Shown here in pieces: positions 5,705-30,000 of a DNA stretch of 34,826 bases. Below the pieces are notes generated by a model. The model did not search any database. It had not been told where the DNA came from and saw only the letters and a list, made by a program, of their open reading frames with translations. Every line of letters starts with the position of its first letter. Position 1 is the first letter of the stretch. Origin of the DNA: Acidobacteriota bacterium (lineage in GTDB: Bacteria; Acidobacteriota; Terriglobia; UBA7540); the NCBI GenBank assembly GCA_003224695.1, contig QHZO01000040.1:49027-83852 (forward strand). Reading direction: 5' to 3'. A program made the position numbers and the translations under genes.

Positions 5705-7411
5705 ATGGCAGCGCAGAAAAAACGTATCAGTCTTTTGGGGAGCGACCGCCCCGCGCCACCGGAAGCCCGGGCCATCGGCCCGGCCGAAGCGAACGAGCGT
5801 ATTCAGGTCACGGTGTTTTTGCGCCGCCGGTCGGCGCCCGCTTCGTTCCCGGCCGTTGAGACGATGGGCGCCCGCCCGCTCAGCCAACGGCGTAACCTGA
5901 GCCGAAAACAATTTGCCGCAGCGCACGGAGCGGCTCCCGGCGATTTGAAGAAAATCCGGGCGTTCGCGGCCCAGCATAACCTGAAGGTGATTGAGGAGCG
6001 GCCGGAGCGCCGCTCGGTTGTGCTGGCGGGAACGCTCGGCGACTTCAGCGCGGCGTTTGACGTTCGTTTCAAGCGCTACGAGCATCCCAAAGGGAATTTC
6101 CGCGGGCACGATGGCCCGCTGCGGATTCCGGCGGAGCTGGCCAACATTGTCGAAGGCGTTTTCGGGCTCGATAACCGGCGGCAAGCCGAGCCCCACTTCC
6201 GCCGGTTGGAATCGAACCCGGCGGAATTCACTCCCCGTGCGGCGGGCAGGACGTTTACGGCGCCGCAAGTCGCCGCGCTTTACCAATTCCCGGCCACCGC
6301 CAATGGCGCGGGGCAGTGTATCGGCATTCTGGAATTGGGCGGCGGGTACCAGAGCTCGGACTTAGAGGCTTATTTCGGCCAGCTCGGACTGGCGACGCCC
6401 ACGGTTGTGGAAGTGGATGTGGATGGCGGATCCAATCAGCCGACCGGCGATCCAAATAGCGCCGACGGCGAGGTCGCCCTGGATATCGAAGTGGCGGGCG
6501 CCGTGGCGCCGGGCGCAAAGATTGCCGTCTATTTTGCGCCCAACACCGACCAGGGATTTCTCGACGCGCTCACGACCGCCGTCCACGATTCCGCCAACAA
6601 CCCGTCGGTGATCTCCATAAGCTGGGGCGGGCCGGAATCCACCTGGACGGCGCAGGCGCTCGACGCCTTCAACAGCGCCTGTCATGATGCGGCGGCGATG
6701 GGCGTGACGGTCTGTGCCGCCTCGGGTGACGACGGCTCCTCGGATGGAGTCAGCGATGGCCAGCCTCACGTGGATTTTCCCGCCTCGAGCCTCTACGTGC
6801 TCGGCTGTGGCGGGACGACTCTCTCGAGTTCCGCCAACCGCATCACCGAAGAGGATGCGTGGGACGATCTGGCGAATGGCGGCGGGGCGAGCGGCGGCGG
6901 CGTGAGCGTGCATTTCCCCTTGCCCACCTGGCAGCAGGCAGCCTACGTCCCCCCGGCGCCAAACAACCGGCCCGGACGCGGCGTTCCCGACGTGGCCGGC
7001 GACGCGGCTCCTTCAACCGGCTACCAAATCACCGTGGACGGCGCATTCGGCGTCGTGGGCGGCACCAGCGCTGTGGCGCCGCTGTGGGCAGGCCTCGTCG
7101 CCCTGCTCAACCAAATTGTCGGCCAGCCAGTGGGGTTCTTGAACCCGCTCCTCTATTCGAAGCTGCCTCAGGGAATTTTGAATGACATCACGCAGGGAAA
7201 CAACGGGCAGTACAGCGCCGGCCCCGGCTGGGACCCCGTCACCGGTCTCGGCTCACCGAACGGCGCGAATATCGTGTCTGCGCTTCAGCCGCCAAGCAAG
7301 GTCACGCCGCAGCGAGGCGCCAAGCGCCGCCGCCCCGCTCCGAAGAGGCGCACGACGAAGGTCAAACCCAAGCGCGGCAAAAAAACCAAGCGGTCAAAGA
7401 AGAAACGATGA
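5705..7411 (+). CDS. S53 family serine-carboxyl peptidase (kumamolisin/sedolisin type)
   Basis: The product is 568 aa. The start ATG follows a strong AAGGAGG six bases upstream. Residues ~30-175 form the activation propeptide of pro-kumamolisin type (FLRRR..., LSRKQFAAAHGA, VFGLDNR). The mature domain begins near residue 190. The sedolisin catalytic set is visible: Glu256 and Asp260 four residues apart (GEVALD), Asp342 in ASGDDG, and Ser455 in GGTSAVAPLW. The calcium-site region LNDIT...GWDPVTGLGSP is present near residues 495-520. These enzymes are acid endopeptidases that mature by cutting off the propeptide. No classical signal peptide is seen, as in kumamolisin. After the catalytic domain there is an extra tail of about 32 residues that is almost all Lys, Arg, Pro and Thr. 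The next gene is a convergent TonB receptor. Confidence 0.93.
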   Translation: MAAQKKRISLLGSDRPAPPEARAIGPAEANERIQVTVFLRRRSAPASFPAVETMGARPLSQRRNLSRKQFAAAHGAAPGDLKKIRAFAAQHNLKVIEERPERRSVVLAGTLGDFSAAFDVRFKRYEHPKGNFRGHDGPLRIPAELANIVEGVFGLDNRRQAEPHFRRLESNPAEFTPRAAGRTFTAPQVAALYQFPATANGAGQCIGILELGGGYQSSDLEAYFGQLGLATPTVVEVDVDGGSNQPTGDPNSADGEVALDIEVAGAVAPGAKIAVYFAPNTDQGFLDALTTAVHDSANNPSVISISWGGPESTWTAQALDAFNSACHDAAAMGVTVCAASGDDGSSDGVSDGQPHVDFPASSLYVLGCGGTTLSSSANRITEEDAWDDLANGGGASGGGVSVHFPLPTWQQAAYVPPAPNNRPGRGVPDVAGDAAPSTGYQITVDGAFGVVGGTSAVAPLWAGLVALLNQIVGQPVGFLNPLLYSKLPQGILNDITQGNNGQYSAGPGWDPVTGLGSPNGANIVSALQPPSKVTPQRGAKRRRPAPKRRTTKVKPKRGKKTKRSKKKR

Positions 7412-12255: not shown

Positions 12256-12284
12256 TTGACAAACCACGCTGTTTAAGGTACTAT
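12256..12284 (+). promoter_or_regulatory. Strong sigma-70 promoter of the transposase
   Basis: TTGACA (12256-12261), a 17-base spacer, and TACTAT (12279-12284). The -35 box is consensus and the -10 box matches five of six. A start seven bases after the -10 box would be at or beside the A of the ATG at 12292, implying a leaderless message. Confidence 0.75.
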
Positions 12285-12291
12285 GCTAACC

Positions 12292-13239
12292 ATGAGAGAG
12301 AGACATGATAACCCGAAAACGCTGCTGGAAGCGGTGAAATTCTTTGCCGATTACGAGAATTGCCGCAAGTTCATGATTGAGGCGCGATGGCCTGATGGCG
12401 TTGTCCGCTGCCCGCTCTGCGACTCCGACCACGTAATCTATATGGAGCGAACGCGCCGCTGGAAGTGCTACGGCAAGCACACCCGCGCACAGTTTACGCT
12501 CAAGGTCGGAACCATCTTCGCGGATTCTCCCATTCCCCTTGAAAAGTGGCTTCCGACCCTCTGGCTGCTTGTGAATTGCAAGAATGGGATTAGCTCTTAC
12601 GAAGTGGGGCGTAACCTTGGCGTTACCCAAAAGACTGCTTGGTTTATGCTCCACCGGCTTCGGCTTGCTATGCAGACGGGCTCGATCATGAGGCTGCAAG
12701 GCGAAGTTGAGGTTGACGAAACCTTCATCGGCGGCAAGGCTCGGAACATGCACGCTGAGAAAAGGCGCACCCGGATTACGGGCACGGGCGGGAAAGACAA
12801 GGCCGTGGTCATGGGATTCTTGCAGCGTGGCGGAAAGGTCTGCGCGGAAGTCATCGGCACCCGGAAGAAGCGCGAATTGCAGGCGGAAGTGAGAAAGCAC
12901 GTCGCGGCTGGCTCTGCGCTCTACAGCGATGCCCTGCAATCTTACGATGGCTTGGAAGCAGAGTACGCCCACAAAGTGATTGACCATGCAGTTATTTACG
13001 TTGATGGCCTGGTTCATACGAGCGGCCTCGAAAACTTTTGGAGCCTCTTGAAGCGGGGCCTTAAGGGAACCTACGTCAGTGTCGAACCGTTTCATCTGTT
13101 CCGTTATCTTGATGAACAGAGCTTCCGCTATAACGAACGGAAGGACGAAGAAGGCGACTTTGGCAGGTTCCAAACCGCATTTTCTCAGATAATCGGAAAG
13201 CGGCTCACCTACGACCAACTGAGGGGAGTCACGAATTGA
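12292..13239 (+). CDS. IS1595 family transposase (ISXO2-like domain)
   Basis: The product is 315 aa from the ATG at 12292. The upstream ATG at 12283 overlaps the promoter -10 box and cannot be transcribed from it. The N-terminus has a zinc-ribbon (CPLC at residues 40-43, Cys59 and His63 in KCYGKH) and the FMIEARWPDGVVRCP block of IS1595 transposases. A helix-turn-helix region follows (EVGRNLGVTQKTAWFMLHRLR, about 104-124). The ISXO2 catalytic domain shows Asp142 in VDETFIGGK, Asp213 in YSDALQSY and Glu247/Asn248 in LENFWSLLKRGLKG. The enzyme would cut and paste the element bounded by 11347 and 13450. Its stop overlaps the start of a small basic ORF by four bases. The gene appears intact, so the element may still move. 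Confidence 0.93.
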   Translation: MRERHDNPKTLLEAVKFFADYENCRKFMIEARWPDGVVRCPLCDSDHVIYMERTRRWKCYGKHTRAQFTLKVGTIFADSPIPLEKWLPTLWLLVNCKNGISSYEVGRNLGVTQKTAWFMLHRLRLAMQTGSIMRLQGEVEVDETFIGGKARNMHAEKRRTRITGTGGKDKAVVMGFLQRGGKVCAEVIGTRKKRELQAEVRKHVAAGSALYSDALQSYDGLEAEYAHKVIDHAVIYVDGLVHTSGLENFWSLLKRGLKGTYVSVEPFHLFRYLDEQSFRYNERKDEEGDFGRFQTAFSQIIGKRLTYDQLRGVTN

Positions 13240-24151: not shown

Positions 24152-24542
24152 AAGGCCTCCTCACGACGAAAGCAGGCTCGAGCCCGATCGGGCGCAACGT
24201 ATTCCTCCTTCGCAAAAATTTCAAGTGGGAGTCAATCCGGTCTTGTAGGAGATGAGTTTGAAAAGGGCTTGCGAGCATAAACGAGATGGACTATTCAGGA
24301 TGCTTTCGAGCCCAAGTATGGGGAAAAACATTTAGCCTAGATTCAGGACTTTACCTGATTGACTTTTGTTTAAGGTTTGGTTAGCTTATCGTTCGTTGGG
24401 GGTTGTTGTCTATCTTTAGTTAGATTGACTTTATCGAACCATTTTGGAGCGCGGCAAACAAATTGTCCAGATGGATCGTGTTTCCGCCAGTCAGATGTTG
24501 AGCAACTCCGGAATCTGGCTGTCAGGAAGGTAAGGATTTTTT
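24152..24542. other. Divergent intergenic region upstream of the first receiver-TTR gene
   Basis: No gene is seen. The DNA is less GC-rich than its surroundings. The decamer GATTGACTTT occurs twice (24357-24366 and 24423-24432) and once more at 27043-27052, upstream of the third paralogue. It contains a TTGACT -35-like core. No convincing -10 box follows at each copy. Confidence 0.5.
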
Positions 24543-25361
24543 ATGCCATTCGAGAGCGGACACGGAGCGAAGGTCCTCATCGTCGCGGATGACGCGAATG
24601 GGGAGCGGCCTCTCCAAACGTTTCTTTCCAGCATGGGTTGCTCTTGCACTGTGGCCACGGCCAGGGAGCTTGCCACCGCCGAAGCCGCTCGCCGTACGTT
24701 TGACGCAGTGCTTCTCGATTTGCGTTATTCCGCCCGCCCCGCGGAGCGACTCACTTCGTTCGTCGAAGGAATGCCCCTCAGTCTGAAGGAACGCACCCTG
24801 TTGATCAGCAGTGACCGCCCTGACGCCCAGACGATGAATCTGGCCGACCGTTACAGCCTTCCTCGGCTTACTGAAAATCGTTTGATCTTTGGGGTGTGGG
24901 ATAACATCCAAAAATTATTGGCCCTCCCGCGAATCGAGCACCCGGCCACGAAGGGTGAGCGGATTGCTTGGATCCTATTTGACAGCTTCCGGCGGCCGGC
25001 GCCGCCGGGAACGCGCGGGTCGTCCGGTTCCACTCGCCAGTTCGCCTACCAGCATGATGACGTGATTGTGGACATTGCGATTGAGCCCGTGGCCGAGTCA
25101 GGCCGGATATCGCTGGTTGGCCAAATCATGGATAGGCGGTCCGGGAAGGGCCCGAACATAAGCCTGCCCGTGACCCTCACCAGCCGCAAGGGCCCTGTGG
25201 CTCGGGCCCAGACGAACCCGATGGGTGAATTCGTGTTCGAGTTTGAATTCGTGCCGGACGTCGAGATGGAGTTTCAGACCGACGCGGGGACATGGGTGCT
25301 GATCCAGTTGCCGAGCTTAAATTGGATTAGGGAGCGTTTGCCGTTGTGGGCGGCCGGGTAA
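24543..25361 (+). CDS. Receiver-like/transthyretin-like fusion protein, paralogue 1
   Basis: A 272-residue protein of no named family. Residues ~9-125 look like a response-regulator receiver: VLIVADD (Asp16, Asp17), then a FDAVLLDL strand with Asp59 at the phospho-acceptor place. The threonine and lysine sites are not convincing. Residues ~140-165 have a conserved FDSF-R-P-PPG-RG-S-G-TRQ linker. Residues ~180-260 are a beta domain, RISLVGQIMDRRSGKG...VTL..., ARAQTNPMGEFVFEFE, resembling carboxypeptidase-regulatory/transthyretin folds, and end with LNW-x-R....W. Two more copies follow (25973-26782 and 27129-27941). Proteins with the C-terminal domain occur in Acidobacteriota near signalling genes, from memory. 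It lacks a signal peptide or helix-turn-helix, so it is more likely an adaptor than a transcription factor. Confidence 0.8.
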   Translation: MPFESGHGAKVLIVADDANGERPLQTFLSSMGCSCTVATARELATAEAARRTFDAVLLDLRYSARPAERLTSFVEGMPLSLKERTLLISSDRPDAQTMNLADRYSLPRLTENRLIFGVWDNIQKLLALPRIEHPATKGERIAWILFDSFRRPAPPGTRGSSGSTRQFAYQHDDVIVDIAIEPVAESGRISLVGQIMDRRSGKGPNISLPVTLTSRKGPVARAQTNPMGEFVFEFEFVPDVEMEFQTDAGTWVLIQLPSLNWIRERLPLWAAG

Positions 25362-25972
25362 GGGCGCCGAGCTTCCCAATCTGTAAAACGGGAAGACTGA
25401 TTTTTTGCTTCTGCGGTTGCCGCTTAGCCGGGCATAGTCACGTACAAAATTAAAAGTTAGTATATAGTTGGATTGTCGCTCTTATATGTAATCAGTCGAC
25501 CGCATGATGCTCGAAAAAGCGTAGATATTCCTTAACATCGCAGGCCCAAAATTAAAAGCGCGTAGGGTGGCGGCTTCCATCCCTGGCCACACTTACGCGA
25601 CCGCGCCATGAGCCCAAACGGCGATGGCATGCATATAACTTTCGGTGTATGTCCACACTGACCTTACGCTCAATTGACAGCTTTCAAGAAACAAGGTATT
25701 TGATTCACACCACTCTAAGGCGACTCGGGTAGCTTTCCGGCGCGAGGGCAATAGCCTCGGCCAGCGCACAGGAAGTTCCGATGCTCAGCCGCAGTCTCAA
25801 CTATGTAGGTTGGGCTGTCTCAAGCTGACCGGAAAAATTCAGTGCGAAATCAGGCAAGCCCCTGATAGCCCATGGATTACGTGTGCTTTAAGGACGGCAT
25901 AATGGATTGGTTCATGCCATTTCCGTGTCGAGGACCGAGGGGCACCCAAAACCCCAAGAAAAAGGAGGAGGA
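25362..25972. other. Intergenic region between paralogues 1 and 2
   Basis: Six hundred bases without a believable gene. Near the left end is a terminator-like stem (25372-25406). At 25674-25702 TTGACA is followed 17 bases later by TATTTG, a weak sigma-70-like promoter about 270 bases upstream of the ATG of paralogue 2. At the right end is a strong ribosome site (AAGGAGG, 25962-25968). The middle is featureless; I see no tRNA or repeat. Confidence 0.5.
25372..25406 (+). terminator. Candidate intrinsic terminator after paralogue 1
   Basis: CTTCCC (25372-25377) pairs with GGGAAG (25390-25395) across a 12-base loop, followed by ACTGA and six T residues (25401-25406). The stem is short, so confidence is modest. 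It lies ten bases after the stop codon. Confidence 0.4.
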
Positions 25973-25975
25973 ATG
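25962..25975 (+). promoter_or_regulatory. Strong ribosome site and ATG of paralogue 2, ahead of an amber codon
   Basis: AAGGAGG (25962-25968) is followed four bases later by ATG (25973-25975). The frame has a TAG at codon 8 (25994-25996). A site this good argues that the ATG was the original start and that the TAG is a later nonsense change, rather than the gene beginning downstream. Confidence 0.75.
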
Positions 25976-26782
25976 AATAGGGTGCTGATTATTTAGGACA
26001 ATGAGGGCAGACTGGAAGAGCGCCGATTGTTCCACACATATCTCTCCAGTTTGGGGTGTTCCTGCACCACGGTTCAAAGCGCGGAGGATATCGTTTCGTC
26101 GGTCGCGGATGGCAAGCTCGATGCGGTGTTAATGGACTTGCGTTTTTCCAGAGTCCCTCAGGAACGGCTGGCATGCATCATCGATAAAATCCCTCCCAGC
26201 CTGATGAAACACACTCTGGTGATCACGCGGGACGCCTTTGACGCGAAGACAAACGAACTGCTGGTTCAGCGCTCTCTCCACACCCTCCCTCAAGGCCGCT
26301 TGGTTCAAGGGATGTGGGAAATTTTGCAGAGGATATTTGCGGCGCCATGGTTCGAAGGCTCGGTCTTGCGGGGTATGCGAGTCGCCCAAATGATATTCGA
26401 CAGCTTTCATACGCCGCTTCCCGCGGGAGTGCGCGGCTCGTTCGGTTTCAGCCGGCACCTCTCCTCCTGGCTTGAAAACATCATTGTGGATGTCTCCATC
26501 GAGCTGTTGGCGGGGTCGGGCCGGATATCCTTGGCCGGCCAGTTCACGGATTACGCTACCGGCGAAGGCCCGCGCGAGAACTTTCCCGTTGCCGTCAACG
26601 GCGCCGCGGGTCCACTGGCCCGCGCCAGGACAAACGGGTTTGGGGAATTCAAATTGCAGTTTGATTCGGTGAAGGATCTGGAGCTGGAAATTTGGGCCGC
26701 CAGAGGCTCTTGGCTGGCTGTTCCCATGCCCGAAATGAACTGGCCCAGATCGTCTGTGTCGTCCTGGGGCGCGACAGGCTAA
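25973..26782 (+). pseudogene. Receiver-like/transthyretin-like fusion protein, paralogue 2, with amber stop at codon 8
   Basis: From the ATG at 25973 the frame encodes MNRVLII, a TAG (25994-25996), then DNEGRLEERRLFHTYLSSLGCS and on without further damage to 26782, giving 269 residues if the TAG is read. That length matches the siblings (272 and 270). Receivers typically have E-D-(N/D) after a VLII strand, so the lost codon was probably GAG. The rest keeps the phospho-acceptor strand (DAVLMDL, Asp55), the FDSF linker (MIFDSFHTPLPAGVRGSFGFSR), the RISLAGQF beta domain and the LNW-like C-terminus (EMNWPRSS). A TTG at 26027 would allow a shortened protein without the first strand. I judge a recent nonsense mutation most likely; readthrough or reinitiation is possible. 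Confidence 0.75.
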
Positions 26783-27128
26783 CCGAGGGCCGGCTCTCAT
26801 GGCGCCGTGTCTAAGGTACCGCCTCCGCCTCCGTCTTCGTCGCTGAATCTCCCAAAGACACCTCTCGCGCAACCGGGCATTGTGAACACCGAGCCGGGCG
26901 TGACGCGCAGAGTTCTGCAGTAACACACACAACCGCCCTGAGCGGGATAACCCCTGCAACTTCTGTCAAATAACCTTAGCGAGACTTATTTGGGTTGCCT
27001 GCGCCATCCGGTCCCATGGCCCTAGAATTCAGGTGTCTTCCCGATTGACTTTCGGATCGCCTGAGGTTTATCAAGGGGCTGTCGGGTTTACTTACTGATG
27101 ACGGAGGCCGCTCATTCAAGGATTAAGT
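26783..27128. other. Intergenic region between paralogues 2 and 3
   Basis: No supported gene. A proline-rich 38-codon frame (GTG 26807 to TAA 26923) has no ribosome site and is not counted. GATTGACTTT (27043-27052) matches the decamer found twice upstream of paralogue 1, and 18 bases after its TTGACT lies TATCAA, a possible -10 box. AAGGA (27118-27122) precedes the GTG of paralogue 3. Confidence 0.5.
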
Positions 27129-27941
27129 GTGCAGTTCGGAAAGAAGACGACGATCCTCGTCATTGGAGCGGGAGAGTCAACGCGCTCTTTCGTTCACACC
27201 TTTCTCTATAGCCTCGGATACTCGACCACGGAAGTCTCGAGCGAGAAAGAAATCCTCGCTGCCTTCGGGCAAGACGCTTTCGACCGGATCGTGGTGGATC
27301 TGCTCGGCTCTGCCGCCCCTGGTAAGCGGCTGGCCTACGCCCTGAAAAGAATTCCTCCCAGCTTCCTGAAGCACACCCTTGTGGTCAGCGAGAATTCCGA
27401 CGAAGCGGCCATGAGCCTCATCGCGAGGCACAGCCTTCATCACCTTTCTCCAGGGCACTTCTTTTTCGGACTGCTGCGAGGCATTCCGAATTTATCTTCC
27501 AGCCCCCGGCCGGAGCTCTCGGCGAGGGAGAAGGGACGGATGGCTGAAATAGTATTCGACAGCTTCACCCGGCCCCAACCCGCGGGAGCGCGCGGCGTGT
27601 CCGAGCATACCCGGCAGCTCACCTACCGCAATGGGAACCTCATTGTAGCTGTCTCCATCGAACCCGTAGCGGGTCAAAACCGGGTTTCGCTGGTCGGGCA
27701 GCTCATGGACTATGACACCGACAGGGGTCAGTTGGAGAACGTTCCCGTACTTGTCAACGGCGAAGCCGGTTTCATGGCTTGGGCGCGGACCAACCAGTTT
27801 GGTGAATTCGCGCTGGAGTTTGGTTCGAGGAAGGATATTGAATTGGAAATATGGACCGATCAGAATTCAAGGTTGGTTGTTCGTCTGCCCGATTTGGGCT
27901 GGACAAGGAGGCCATTGCAATGGTGGGACGCTGCGAGCTAG
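27129..27941 (+). CDS. Receiver-like/transthyretin-like fusion protein, paralogue 3
   Basis: The product is 270 aa, GTG start with AAGGA six bases upstream. It has the same plan as paralogues 1 and 2. The receiver-like domain runs to about residue 115, with phospho-acceptor-position Asp57 (FDRIVVDLLG), but the usual acidic pair after the first strand is replaced by GAGE, so magnesium binding is doubtful. The linker VFDSFTRPQPAGARGVSEHTRQL is followed by a beta domain (RVSLVGQLMDYDTDRG, then ARTNQFGEFALEFGSRKDIELEIWTD) and a C-terminal LPDLGWTRR..WW. The three copies are strongly diverged in the receiver half and better conserved in the linker and beta domain, which suggests the beta domain does the shared job. 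The subtilase gene begins 86 bases downstream. Confidence 0.8.
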   Translation: MQFGKKTTILVIGAGESTRSFVHTFLYSLGYSTTEVSSEKEILAAFGQDAFDRIVVDLLGSAAPGKRLAYALKRIPPSFLKHTLVVSENSDEAAMSLIARHSLHHLSPGHFFFGLLRGIPNLSSSPRPELSAREKGRMAEIVFDSFTRPQPAGARGVSEHTRQLTYRNGNLIVAVSIEPVAGQNRVSLVGQLMDYDTDRGQLENVPVLVNGEAGFMAWARTNQFGEFALEFGSRKDIELEIWTDQNSRLVVRLPDLGWTRRPLQWWDAAS

Positions 27942-28027
27942 CGGGGATGGCCGCGTTCAGCGAAAGGTTGGTCCATGCCGGGGAACGACGAAGGAAGAGC
28001 TTGACCCTCTCGAGAATAAGGAGGCGT

Positions 28028-29377
28028 ATGTTCCGACGGCATTGGATTCTATGGCTGGCTTTCTTTTTCATCGCCCTCTCCACCCGGCCCGCGGCCGCGC
28101 AAACCCGGTTTATCGTGCGCGACCGTTCTGGTCGACCGGCGCTTCACCACATCTGTGCGCGCCTGGGTTGCTCCGTCCAGAAACAGATAGATGACGCTGG
28201 CGTCGTCTTCCTGGTGACGACCCCAACCACCTCCGTGAATTTTCTGGAGGCGATTAAGGGCATGCCCGGGATCGCCAACGCGGAGCTGGATGTGAATCTG
28301 CAAGTGGAGACTTTCGAGACCCAGGCCCTTCCGAGCGGGTTGAACGATACGACCATGGCCAATTATTTTGGCCAGTCCGTTTGGGACGGCTACGCCAACC
28401 AACCCGCGGTAGGCGCAATCAGTCTCCCGCTCGCTCAATCCTCCTATGGTGTGACGGGCACCGGCATTGTCGCCGTGATTGATACGGGCGTGGACCCAAA
28501 TCACCCCGTGCTCCAATCGGTGCTCCTGGCAGGATACGACTTTACACGCAACCAGTCGGGCGGCTCGGAACTTGCGGACGTGAATCAGTCCACGATGGCG
28601 GTCGTGGACGGAGACGACGTTGCCCAGGTGAACCAATCCACCATGGCGGTGGTGGACAGCGATGATGTGGACACGCTCTCCGAATCGCAGCTTGCGGCGT
28701 TCGGGCACGGCACCATGGTCGCCGGCATCGTTCACTTGGTGGCCCCCACGGCATCCATCATGCCGCTCAAAGCATTCCAGGCGGATGGCACCGCACACAT
28801 GTCCGACGTCTTGCGGGCCATCTATTACGCGACGCGAAATAACGCGAAAGTATTGAACATGAGTTTTGACTTCACCGGAAGTTCTCGGGAGCTCCACGCC
28901 GCCATCGATCATGCGACGTCGAAAGGCGTCGTCTGCGTGGCGGCGGTTGGAAACGGCGGCCAGCCCCTGGTGGTCTATCCGGCCGGTTTTCCCAATGTGA
29001 TGGGCGTCGCCTCCACCAGCGACGACCAGACGCTCTCCTCGTTTTCGAACTACGGCCAGCCTCCGGTTTGGGTTGCGGCGCCGGGCGAAGGGATCATCAC
29101 CACCTACCCGTTTGGCACATACGCCGCCGGGTGGGGCACTTCCTTCAGCGCGCCGTTTGTTTCGGGTACGGTCGCGCTGCTGAGGAGCGTCAATTCCAAC
29201 CTGAACCAGCAGTCAGCCGCGCAAGCCATTTCGAACGCCGATTACATAACCCCCGACTTAGGCCACGGCCTCCTCGATGTTAACCAGGCCGTCGGCGCTT
29301 CGAATCAGACCGTCCAATCCGCACCCCACTCGGACGACGACGACGACTTCGACCAGTGGTTCCCACCCCGGCAGTAG
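28028..29377 (+). CDS. Secreted S8 family serine peptidase (subtilase)
   Basis: The product is 449 aa from the ATG at 28028, which has AAGGAGG four bases upstream. The longer frame from 27851 overlaps paralogue 3 and is rejected. It has a signal peptide (HWILWLAFFFIALSTRPAAAQ) and an inhibitor-like propeptide (about 26-115). The catalytic triad is Asp152 (VIDTGVDPNHP), His227 (FGHGTMVAG) and Ser372 (GTSFSAPFVSG), with the oxyanion Asn in AAVGNGG. Between Asp and His lies a 16-residue tandem repeat, VNQSTMAVVDGDDVAQ and VNQSTMAVVDSDDVDT (residues 185-216). The C-terminus is strongly acidic (SDDDDDFD). Repeats of the xQSTxAxxD type between Asp and His are known to me from acidobacterial subtilases. 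It follows the receiver-TTR genes on the same strand and may belong to the same transcription unit. Confidence 0.92.
   Translation: MFRRHWILWLAFFFIALSTRPAAAQTRFIVRDRSGRPALHHICARLGCSVQKQIDDAGVVFLVTTPTTSVNFLEAIKGMPGIANAELDVNLQVETFETQALPSGLNDTTMANYFGQSVWDGYANQPAVGAISLPLAQSSYGVTGTGIVAVIDTGVDPNHPVLQSVLLAGYDFTRNQSGGSELADVNQSTMAVVDGDDVAQVNQSTMAVVDSDDVDTLSESQLAAFGHGTMVAGIVHLVAPTASIMPLKAFQADGTAHMSDVLRAIYYATRNNAKVLNMSFDFTGSSRELHAAIDHATSKGVVCVAAVGNGGQPLVVYPAGFPNVMGVASTSDDQTLSSFSNYGQPPVWVAAPGEGIITTYPFGTYAAGWGTSFSAPFVSGTVALLRSVNSNLNQQSAAQAISNADYITPDLGHGLLDVNQAVGASNQTVQSAPHSDDDDDFDQWFPPRQ
28580..28675 (+). repeat. 48-bp tandem repeat in the subtilase gene
   Basis: Two in-frame units of 48 bases (28580-28627 and 28628-28675). 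They encode VNQSTMAVVDGDDVAQ and VNQSTMAVVDSDDVDT. Many third-position differences show that the duplication is not recent or is under selection at the protein level. Confidence 0.88.
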
Positions 29378-29470
29378 TATTTCCAGGAGTTGGGGAACGT
29401 TGGCGTCGGAAAAAACCCGAAGGCGAGTGCGGTTTGTCGAACCGCAAATGGGAGCGTGGGGAAGGCCGGA

Positions 29471-29833
29471 TCAGGGAAGCTTCATCATGATGTACTCGCC
29501 GCCGCACTCGAACAGTGAGAGCACGCGCGTCACTTGGAAGAGCTCCCGGATCTGCTTGCTCAAATGGACCACCTGCAATTCTGAGCGCGCCGCCTTGGCC
29601 GAAATATAAAGGGCGACGATCGTCCCCAGGCCGCTGCTGTCCATAAAAACCACTTGGCTCAAGTCCAGGACGATGCGCTTGATGTCCGGCAAAATTTCCC
29701 GGACGTAAGCTTTCAATTCCGGCGCGTAGGGAGCGGTCAGAAAACCCGAGCATGTGACGACGGTTGCATCTCCGCTCACGATTTTACTGAGGGTGAGGCG
29801 CGGCGGCGGCGTGCCGGAAGCAGGCGGTGACAT
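29471..29833 (-). CDS. STAS-domain protein (anti-sigma factor antagonist-like)
   Basis: The product is 120 aa, with AAGGAG upstream of the ATG at 29833. After a Pro-rich start the STAS fold shows ATVVTCSGFLTAPYAPELKAYV, IKRIVLDLSQVVFMDSSGLGTIV (with Ser66 and Ser67 at the phosphorylatable position) and AARSELQVVHLSKQIRELFQVTRV. Such proteins are reversibly phosphorylated partners of anti-sigma kinases. No kinase or phosphatase gene lies beside it. It is transcribed against the subtilase, so its link to the receiver-TTR cluster is unproven. Confidence 0.88.
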   Translation of the reverse strand: MSPPASGTPPPRLTLSKIVSGDATVVTCSGFLTAPYAPELKAYVREILPDIKRIVLDLSQVVFMDSSGLGTIVALYISAKAARSELQVVHLSKQIRELFQVTRVLSLFECGGEYIMMKLP

Positions 29834-29935
29834 AATTCTCCTTCGGTCGGGCTGTCCTGACGAGTTCGAAACATCAAAGCCGTGAAGAAGTTATCCCGCC
29901 CTCGCCAGGTTTCGAAGCCTCGGCTCCAGGTTGCC

Positions 29936-29956
29936 GCACGACGGACAACGGACGTC
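29936..29956. repeat. Short heptamer-phased repeat upstream of the CCA gene
   Basis: Three 7-base units (GCACGAC, GGACAAC, GGACGTC), related to the CGGACAA units at 16366-16393. It is short and degenerate. Confidence 0.5.
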
Positions 29957-30000
29957 TTTAACTTGTCTTCCTCCCGATGAGTCGGTTCTAATAGCCGGGG

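Follow-up and report, generated by a model that had tools for sequence, protein, structure and literature searches.

An acidobacterial locus of pseudo-receiver/β-domain fusion genes and an exported subtilase gene, a likely offshoot of an ECF sigma/TPR-CHAT cassette

We analysed a stretch of 34,826 nucleotides from the genome of a soil bacterium of the Acidobacteriota (assembly GCA_003224695.1, contig QHZO01000040.1; hereafter the window) in which tandem genes for a degenerate receiver domain fused to a β domain are followed by a gene for an exported subtilase of the S8 family. The locus is likely to be a sigma-less, CHAT-less offshoot of an acidobacterial cassette that encodes an extracytoplasmic function (ECF) sigma factor, a TPR-CHAT protein, a zinc-finger/β-domain protein and a subtilase. 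The β domain and the exported subtilase gene would be the constant module, and the anti-sigma-like HxxxCxxC zinc head of the cassette protein would have been exchanged for a receiver that lost its phosphorylation machinery. Directly observed are the domain anatomy, the exchange of heads between relatives, the recurrence of the fusion–subtilase pair and a cassette on another contig of the genome. We are fairly confident of this ancestry; the overall model, which joins a mechanism to it, is tentative and falls somewhat short of an even chance. The main features of the locus are as follows.

24543–25361, + strand: fusion copy 1, 272 residues (pseudo-receiver, residues ~9–126; conserved flexible segment, residues 146–158; predicted β-sandwich domain to residue ~257)
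24978–25016, + strand: FDSFxxPxxxGxR segment of copy 1, residues 146–158 (from the conservation alignment and AlphaFold)
25973–26782, + strand: fusion copy 2, interrupted (ATG at 25973, TAG at 25994–25996)
27129–27941, + strand: fusion copy 3, 270 residues, starting with GTG (Asp retained, acidic pair missing)
28028–29377, + strand: exported S8 subtilase, 449 residues (Pfam match; Asp, His and Ser motifs)
28583–28657, + strand: pair of NQSTMAVVD units of the subtilase, after the catalytic Asp motif and before the His motif

An earlier note on this stretch, made from the sequence alone, had described three same-strand genes of 269–272 codons on one plan. Copies 1 and 3 are intact, fit this description and can be aligned over their whole length with 37% identity (identity to copy 1 is 37–41% among the window copies). 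The FDSF..P...G.RG stretch and the ISLxGQ, TN..GEF and LNW motifs are common to the window copies, as the note had listed, and we take the shared pattern to be real homology because a profile built from the three copies retrieves dozens of relatives, with E values down to 1e-56. Copy 2 is not the 269-codon gene that had been proposed. Its ATG at 25973 is preceded by a strong Shine–Dalgarno sequence (aaggagg), and the frame meets an in-frame TAG at codon 8, inside receiver strand 1, beyond which only a TTG-started open reading frame of 251 residues without that strand is left. Since the remainder of the frame is open and its shared motifs are complete, the stop is either recent or an assembly error; copy 2 is a pseudogene in the first case.

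The N-terminal half adopts, according to structure prediction and profile matching, the (βα)5 fold of a receiver, which bears out the receiver-like character read from the letters in the earlier note. A profile of 14 fusions matched response regulators in the PDB (E = 1.5e-6, PhoP), the AlphaFold model of copy 1 has its strands and helices in receiver order (β–α; predicted local distance difference test score, pLDDT, 79), and Foldseek matched DivK, BfmR and similar receivers with template-modelling scores of up to 0.75 normalized to target length. Pfam PF00072 leaves only a trace in the window copies (E = 0.015–0.06; 15.9, 14.4 and 13.9 bits versus a gathering score of 30.2), a score that a stand-alone relative encoded in the same genome (L007) exceeds with 34.6 bits. 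The phospho-acceptor aspartate after strand 3 is retained in all three window copies, as noted before, and in 19 of 26 fusions from another family, f6 (see below), the other seven having glutamate. The acidic pair after strand 1, previously described as lost in copy 3, is indeed absent there (G-A), is also half lost in copy 1 (A-D) and reads stop-D in copy 2; nearly all f6 fusions are without it and have mostly G/C and A/E at the two positions. The conserved lysine at the end of strand 5, which had gone unmentioned, is replaced in 44 of 44 (Leu in the window copies, Val, Ile or Ala in relatives), and the Thr/Ser position is mostly retained in the fusions. The relatives nearest to them outside the fusions are stand-alone receivers from this same family of genomes, in which the acidic residues, Asp and Thr are still present and the lysine is missing. 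Because the acidic pair is mostly lost in the fusions and Asp has become Glu in 7/26, the fusion receivers are, by their residues, further decayed than these relatives, and we call the domain a pseudo-receiver. Receivers without the aspartate are a known class (aspartate-less receivers, ALR; PMC4395418), and the window domain shares with such atypical receivers the fold and the loss of phosphorylation residues, but it retains Asp and is fused to a β domain that none of the libraries searched records as an output of receivers.

When the C-terminal half was modelled by itself with AlphaFold, the result was a sandwich of nine strands with good confidence (pLDDT 84.8), for which Foldseek returned nothing below E = 0.001, the best match (8e-3) being to other β-sandwiches. 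Matches to the carboxypeptidase regulatory-like families of Pfam are weak: they were found in four of the 15 C-terminal halves scanned (best 3e-4, below the curated cut-offs) and in none of the window copies, and there is a short match to the small subunit of pyrogallol transhydroxylase. We describe the half as a predicted β-sandwich, for which the label given earlier, transthyretin-like, is a reasonable guess at the fold class rather than a finding. Its likeness to the carboxypeptidase regulatory-like/transthyretin-like domains PF13620 and PF13715 lies in the predicted all-β architecture and these few matches; it differs from them by its own invariant motifs FDSFxxPxxxGxR, GQ and GEF. The most conserved part is FDSFxxPxxxGxR, ahead of the second strand. 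Arg158 and Gln194 are invariant in 56 of 56 aligned domains (those of the zinc-head proteins described below included), and Asp147 and Gly156 occur in 55. The loop that contains Arg158, joining two predicted strands, is modelled with low confidence (pLDDT averaging 56 and 62 over the block), as would be expected of a flexible docking or cut site. No Pfam or NCBIfam family spans the whole fusion protein, no paper describing the fusion was found and a domain scan revealed no DNA-binding domain in it.

The gene that follows copy 3 encodes a subtilase (Peptidase_S8, E = 2.6e-37) with the Asp (DTGVD), His (HGT) and Ser (GTSFSAP) motifs. The subtilase with an NQST repeat directly downstream was correctly recognized in the earlier note, except for its start: the longest open reading frame begins at 27851, and the likely start is the ATG at 28028, which is preceded by a Shine–Dalgarno sequence at 28018–28024 and opens the signal-peptide-like MFRRHWILWLAFFFIALSTRPAAAQ. 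In subtilases of this group the stretch from the catalytic Asp motif to the His motif contains an eight-residue repeat, [ND]QST[VAM][AS]xL-like, which in some relatives forms a tandem array of 6–8 exact NQST units in a row (L065 13491–15098, L066 6463–8016 and L068 7840–9465).

Within the window's own family the fusion occurs in the window genome only (39 family genomes), which had suggested that it was unique to this contig. That possibility was eliminated by a search of 399 genomes of the class, which gave 27 further fusions, spread over 15 genomes that all belong to a single other acidobacterial family, f6. An S8 gene lies directly downstream on the same strand in 25 of these 27, many at −3 to 80 nt, so that both the gene order and the subtilase neighbourhood recur outside this contig, an outcome that the earlier note had named as support; some f6 loci are near-copies (e.g. 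L112 and L116), and the independent cases are fewer than 27. Of the 15 f6 genomes with a fusion, 14 have a CHAT gene elsewhere, as does the window genome. One genome (G228) has the fusion–subtilase pair ~6 kb from a sigma/CHAT/zinc-head cassette without a subtilase of its own.

The C-terminal half usually follows a different head, a module with HxxxCxxC that resembles anti-sigma factors, and its gene then belongs to a cassette with genes for an ECF sigma factor, a TPR-CHAT protease and a subtilase. The order of this cassette recurs across the class. The window genome itself has such a cassette on another contig, C112, with an ECF sigma factor, a TPR-CHAT protein (959 residues), a 239-residue zinc-head protein with the same C-terminal half, a subtilase that is 59% identical to that of the window and likewise has NQSTMAVVD units, as well as an HD-domain gene. 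Among the cassette neighbours scanned, sigma-70 region 2 was found in 12 of 12 candidate sigma factors and both CHAT and TPR in 17 of 17 large proteins; TIGR02937 confirms the sigma assignment at the level of the ECF superfamily only. A gp6 acidobacterium (L172) has TPR-CHAT, zinc-head and S8 genes in a row, assigned by sequence motifs and length. The zinc head carries H-x3-C-x2-C and faintly resembles the anti-sigma factor RsrA (E = 0.048 in L061); an anti-sigma role of the protein is plausible. At L062 (1448–2966) two tandem proteins with this C-terminal half precede the subtilase, one with the HxxxCxxC head and the other with a zinc-ribbon-like head, which by its motifs is another head exchange. 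In the window locus, where sigma, CHAT and HxxxCxxC head are all absent, the receiver stands in the place of the zinc head; the only two CHAT genes of the genome are on other contigs (C112 and C96). The C112 subtilase (L008 1737–2992) is seemingly split in frame between the signal/pro-region and the catalytic domain, a second match containing one TGA. An HD-type gene follows the subtilase in several cassettes (L008 1033–1731, HD_5; L128 1374–2075; L129 8498–9154), candidates other than that of L008 being recognized by sequence similarity only.

The acidobacterial cassette is probably an ECF54 neighbourhood, judging from its gene content. Genes for carboxypeptidase, subtilase and CHAT proteins are conserved next to those of ECF54 sigma factors (Casas-Pastor 2021, as cited in PMC8999054), and it has been proposed that these sigma factors are regulated through proteolysis, with no anti-sigma factor involved (PMC8999054). 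The earlier view that no named system has this layout misses this neighbourhood, to which the C-terminal half and the subtilase both belong and a copy of which is on C112. The window resembles it in having a subtilase gene and a β-domain protein homologous to the cassette zinc-head protein, with the full cassette on another contig of the same genome, and differs in its lack of sigma factor, CHAT protein and zinc head and in the fusion of the β domain to a pseudo-receiver. The HxxxCxxC head is a feature of the cassettes observed here and is not listed in the review, where the neighbourhood is counted as being without an anti-sigma factor; the zinc-head/β-domain protein looks like a candidate for the missing regulator. 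The receiver-headed form shows that the head is exchangeable while the β domain and the subtilase stay, which makes the β domain and its invariant FDSFxxPxxxGxR segment the candidate for the element that the CHAT protein may bind or cut.

A second comparison is with Craspase/CASP (Cas7-11, the TPR-CHAT protein Csx29, Csx30 and CASP-sigma), in which Csx29 cuts a sigma inhibitor (PMC10028731). The cassette likewise couples a TPR-CHAT protease, an ECF sigma factor and a putative sigma inhibitor. It differs in that no CRISPR part was seen (no search of the genome was aimed at Cas7-11), in the other architecture of its inhibitor-like proteins and in the weak resemblance of the C112 TPR-CHAT protein to the Csx29 model NF041237 (E = 3e-12; 46.2 bits, far under the cut-off of 300); the window locus itself has no TPR-CHAT, ECF sigma or sigma inhibitor.

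In the model that we favour, each fusion would be a cytoplasmic protein-interaction switch. The pseudo-receiver would bind a partner, mostly without phosphorylation; the β domain, through the invariant FDSFxxPxxxGxR, may dock on or be cut by a TPR-CHAT protein encoded elsewhere in the genome, by analogy with Csx29/Csx30 (PMC10028731); and the state of the fusion would govern production of the co-encoded subtilase. Cutting at Arg158 in particular, suggested by the same analogy, is improbable at present. Equally speculative is a general modular, CRISPR-free protease circuit, in which one β domain with an invariant cut or docking motif would take swappable input heads (anti-sigma zinc finger, zinc ribbon or pseudo-receiver), with TPR-CHAT as the reader and the repeat-bearing exported subtilase as the output.

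Several observations weigh against the model. No CHAT or sigma gene is present at the window locus, nor within ~4.5 kb among the f6 fusion loci listed, and the link of CHAT to the fusions is for this reason one of co-occurrence in genomes only. The C-terminal half lacks a confident fold match in the PDB. The fusion has no signal peptide and the subtilase is exported, and how the two communicate across this divide is left unexplained by the model. The trees, moreover, disagree in part. That of the C-terminal half joins the window and f6 fusions [Shimodaira–Hasegawa-like approximate likelihood-ratio test (SH-aLRT) 87], and a grouping of the window C-terminal halves with that of the own-genome cassette (L008) is not rejected (p = 0.31). 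The receiver tree places the window copies beside the stand-alone receiver L007 of their own genome (85), without rejection of a single fusion clade (p = 0.38 in the approximately unbiased test, p-AU). The subtilase tree places the window gene among cassette subtilases of family f1 (90) and rejects a clade of the window and f6 fusion subtilases (p-AU = 0.0003), so that the fusion and subtilase genes have not moved together as a unit. The fusion may have had two origins, each from local cassette parts, or a single origin followed by an exchange of its subtilase partner.

The β domain could instead be a direct partner of the adjoining protease, as a cytoplasmic chaperone, inhibitor or substrate of the subtilase, with the head setting only the time of release. 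Such a role is possible, if rather unlikely. The β domain and the S8 gene are the only pair that is constant across the zinc-head and receiver-head forms, and their reading frames overlap or nearly do so in several loci; the subtilases, however, have signal peptides and pro-region-like N-termini of their own, the fusion has no export signal and some zinc-head loci (L071, L072 and L078) contain CHAT and no subtilase.

The fusion genes and the subtilase gene lie in a block with the following further features.

24152–30000, no strand: accessory block, flanked by a mandelate-racemase-family gene and a poly(A) polymerase/CCA-adding-type gene
24341–24366, + strand: 26-nt sequence preceding copy 1, with a second occurrence ahead of copy 3 (27027–27052)
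29471–29833, − strand: STAS-domain (anti-anti-sigma-like) gene within the accessory block

The block is accessory, as judged by genome comparison, because its two flanking genes adjoin in a genome of the same genus (G001), where they are ~240 bp apart versus 5.8 kb in the window and have no fusions, subtilase or STAS gene between them. Misbinning of the contig was ruled out by the poly(A) polymerase-type gene that lies ~0.6 kb beyond the subtilase, since it shares 82% identity with its G001 counterpart and 60–64% with those of f6. Absence of the whole block from G001, its restriction to one genome among the 39 of the family and the interruption of copy 2 would all suit accessory duplicates that are decaying and no longer have a function here. 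We consider this improbable: copies 1 and 3, like the subtilase, have open frames with complete motifs at an identity between the copies of only ~40%, so that frames and motifs have been kept over a long divergence, and the fusion–subtilase pair is maintained in another family.

Ordinary response regulators under phosphorylation control, with a β-domain output that switches subtilase expression, are marginally less probable again. The aspartate, present in all three window copies and in 19/26 of the f6 fusions, the mostly kept Thr/Ser position and the acidic residues, Asp and Thr of the stand-alone relatives agree with this view, but the receiver lysine is absent throughout, the acidic pair is mostly lost, Glu replaces Asp in 7/26 and the fusion has no DNA-binding domain. 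The least probable reading is a defence or suicide circuit of the Craspase kind, CRISPR-free, in which the fusion and subtilase would be an effector branch, given that PADLOC had no match for the fusions and only weak generic matches for the subtilase and CHAT and that no defence neighbour was recognized among the fusion loci listed, even though the set of TPR-CHAT, adjacent ECF sigma and anti-sigma-like protein has its parallel in Csx29, CASP-sigma and Csx30 and the block is accessory in its presence and absence.

The intergenic gaps contained no subtilase or fusion remnants above chance, and scans of the block for sigma-70 promoters and terminators gave no excess over shuffled sequences. The 26-nt sequences upstream of copies 1 and 3 are 81% identical and contain GATTGACTTT, an exact 10-mer that occurs only three times in the window (24357, 24423 and 27043), always upstream of copy 1 or copy 3. 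Relatives of the STAS gene in the ten genomes searched are at most 46% identical, and the gene was rejected as a fusion partner, having no recurrent or consistent association with the fusions elsewhere. The window also contains an unrelated second S8-type protease with a pro-kumamolisin activation domain (5705–7411) and, ~11 kb from the fusion block, an IS1595-type transposase gene (12283–13239; DDE_Tnp_IS1595, zinc ribbon).

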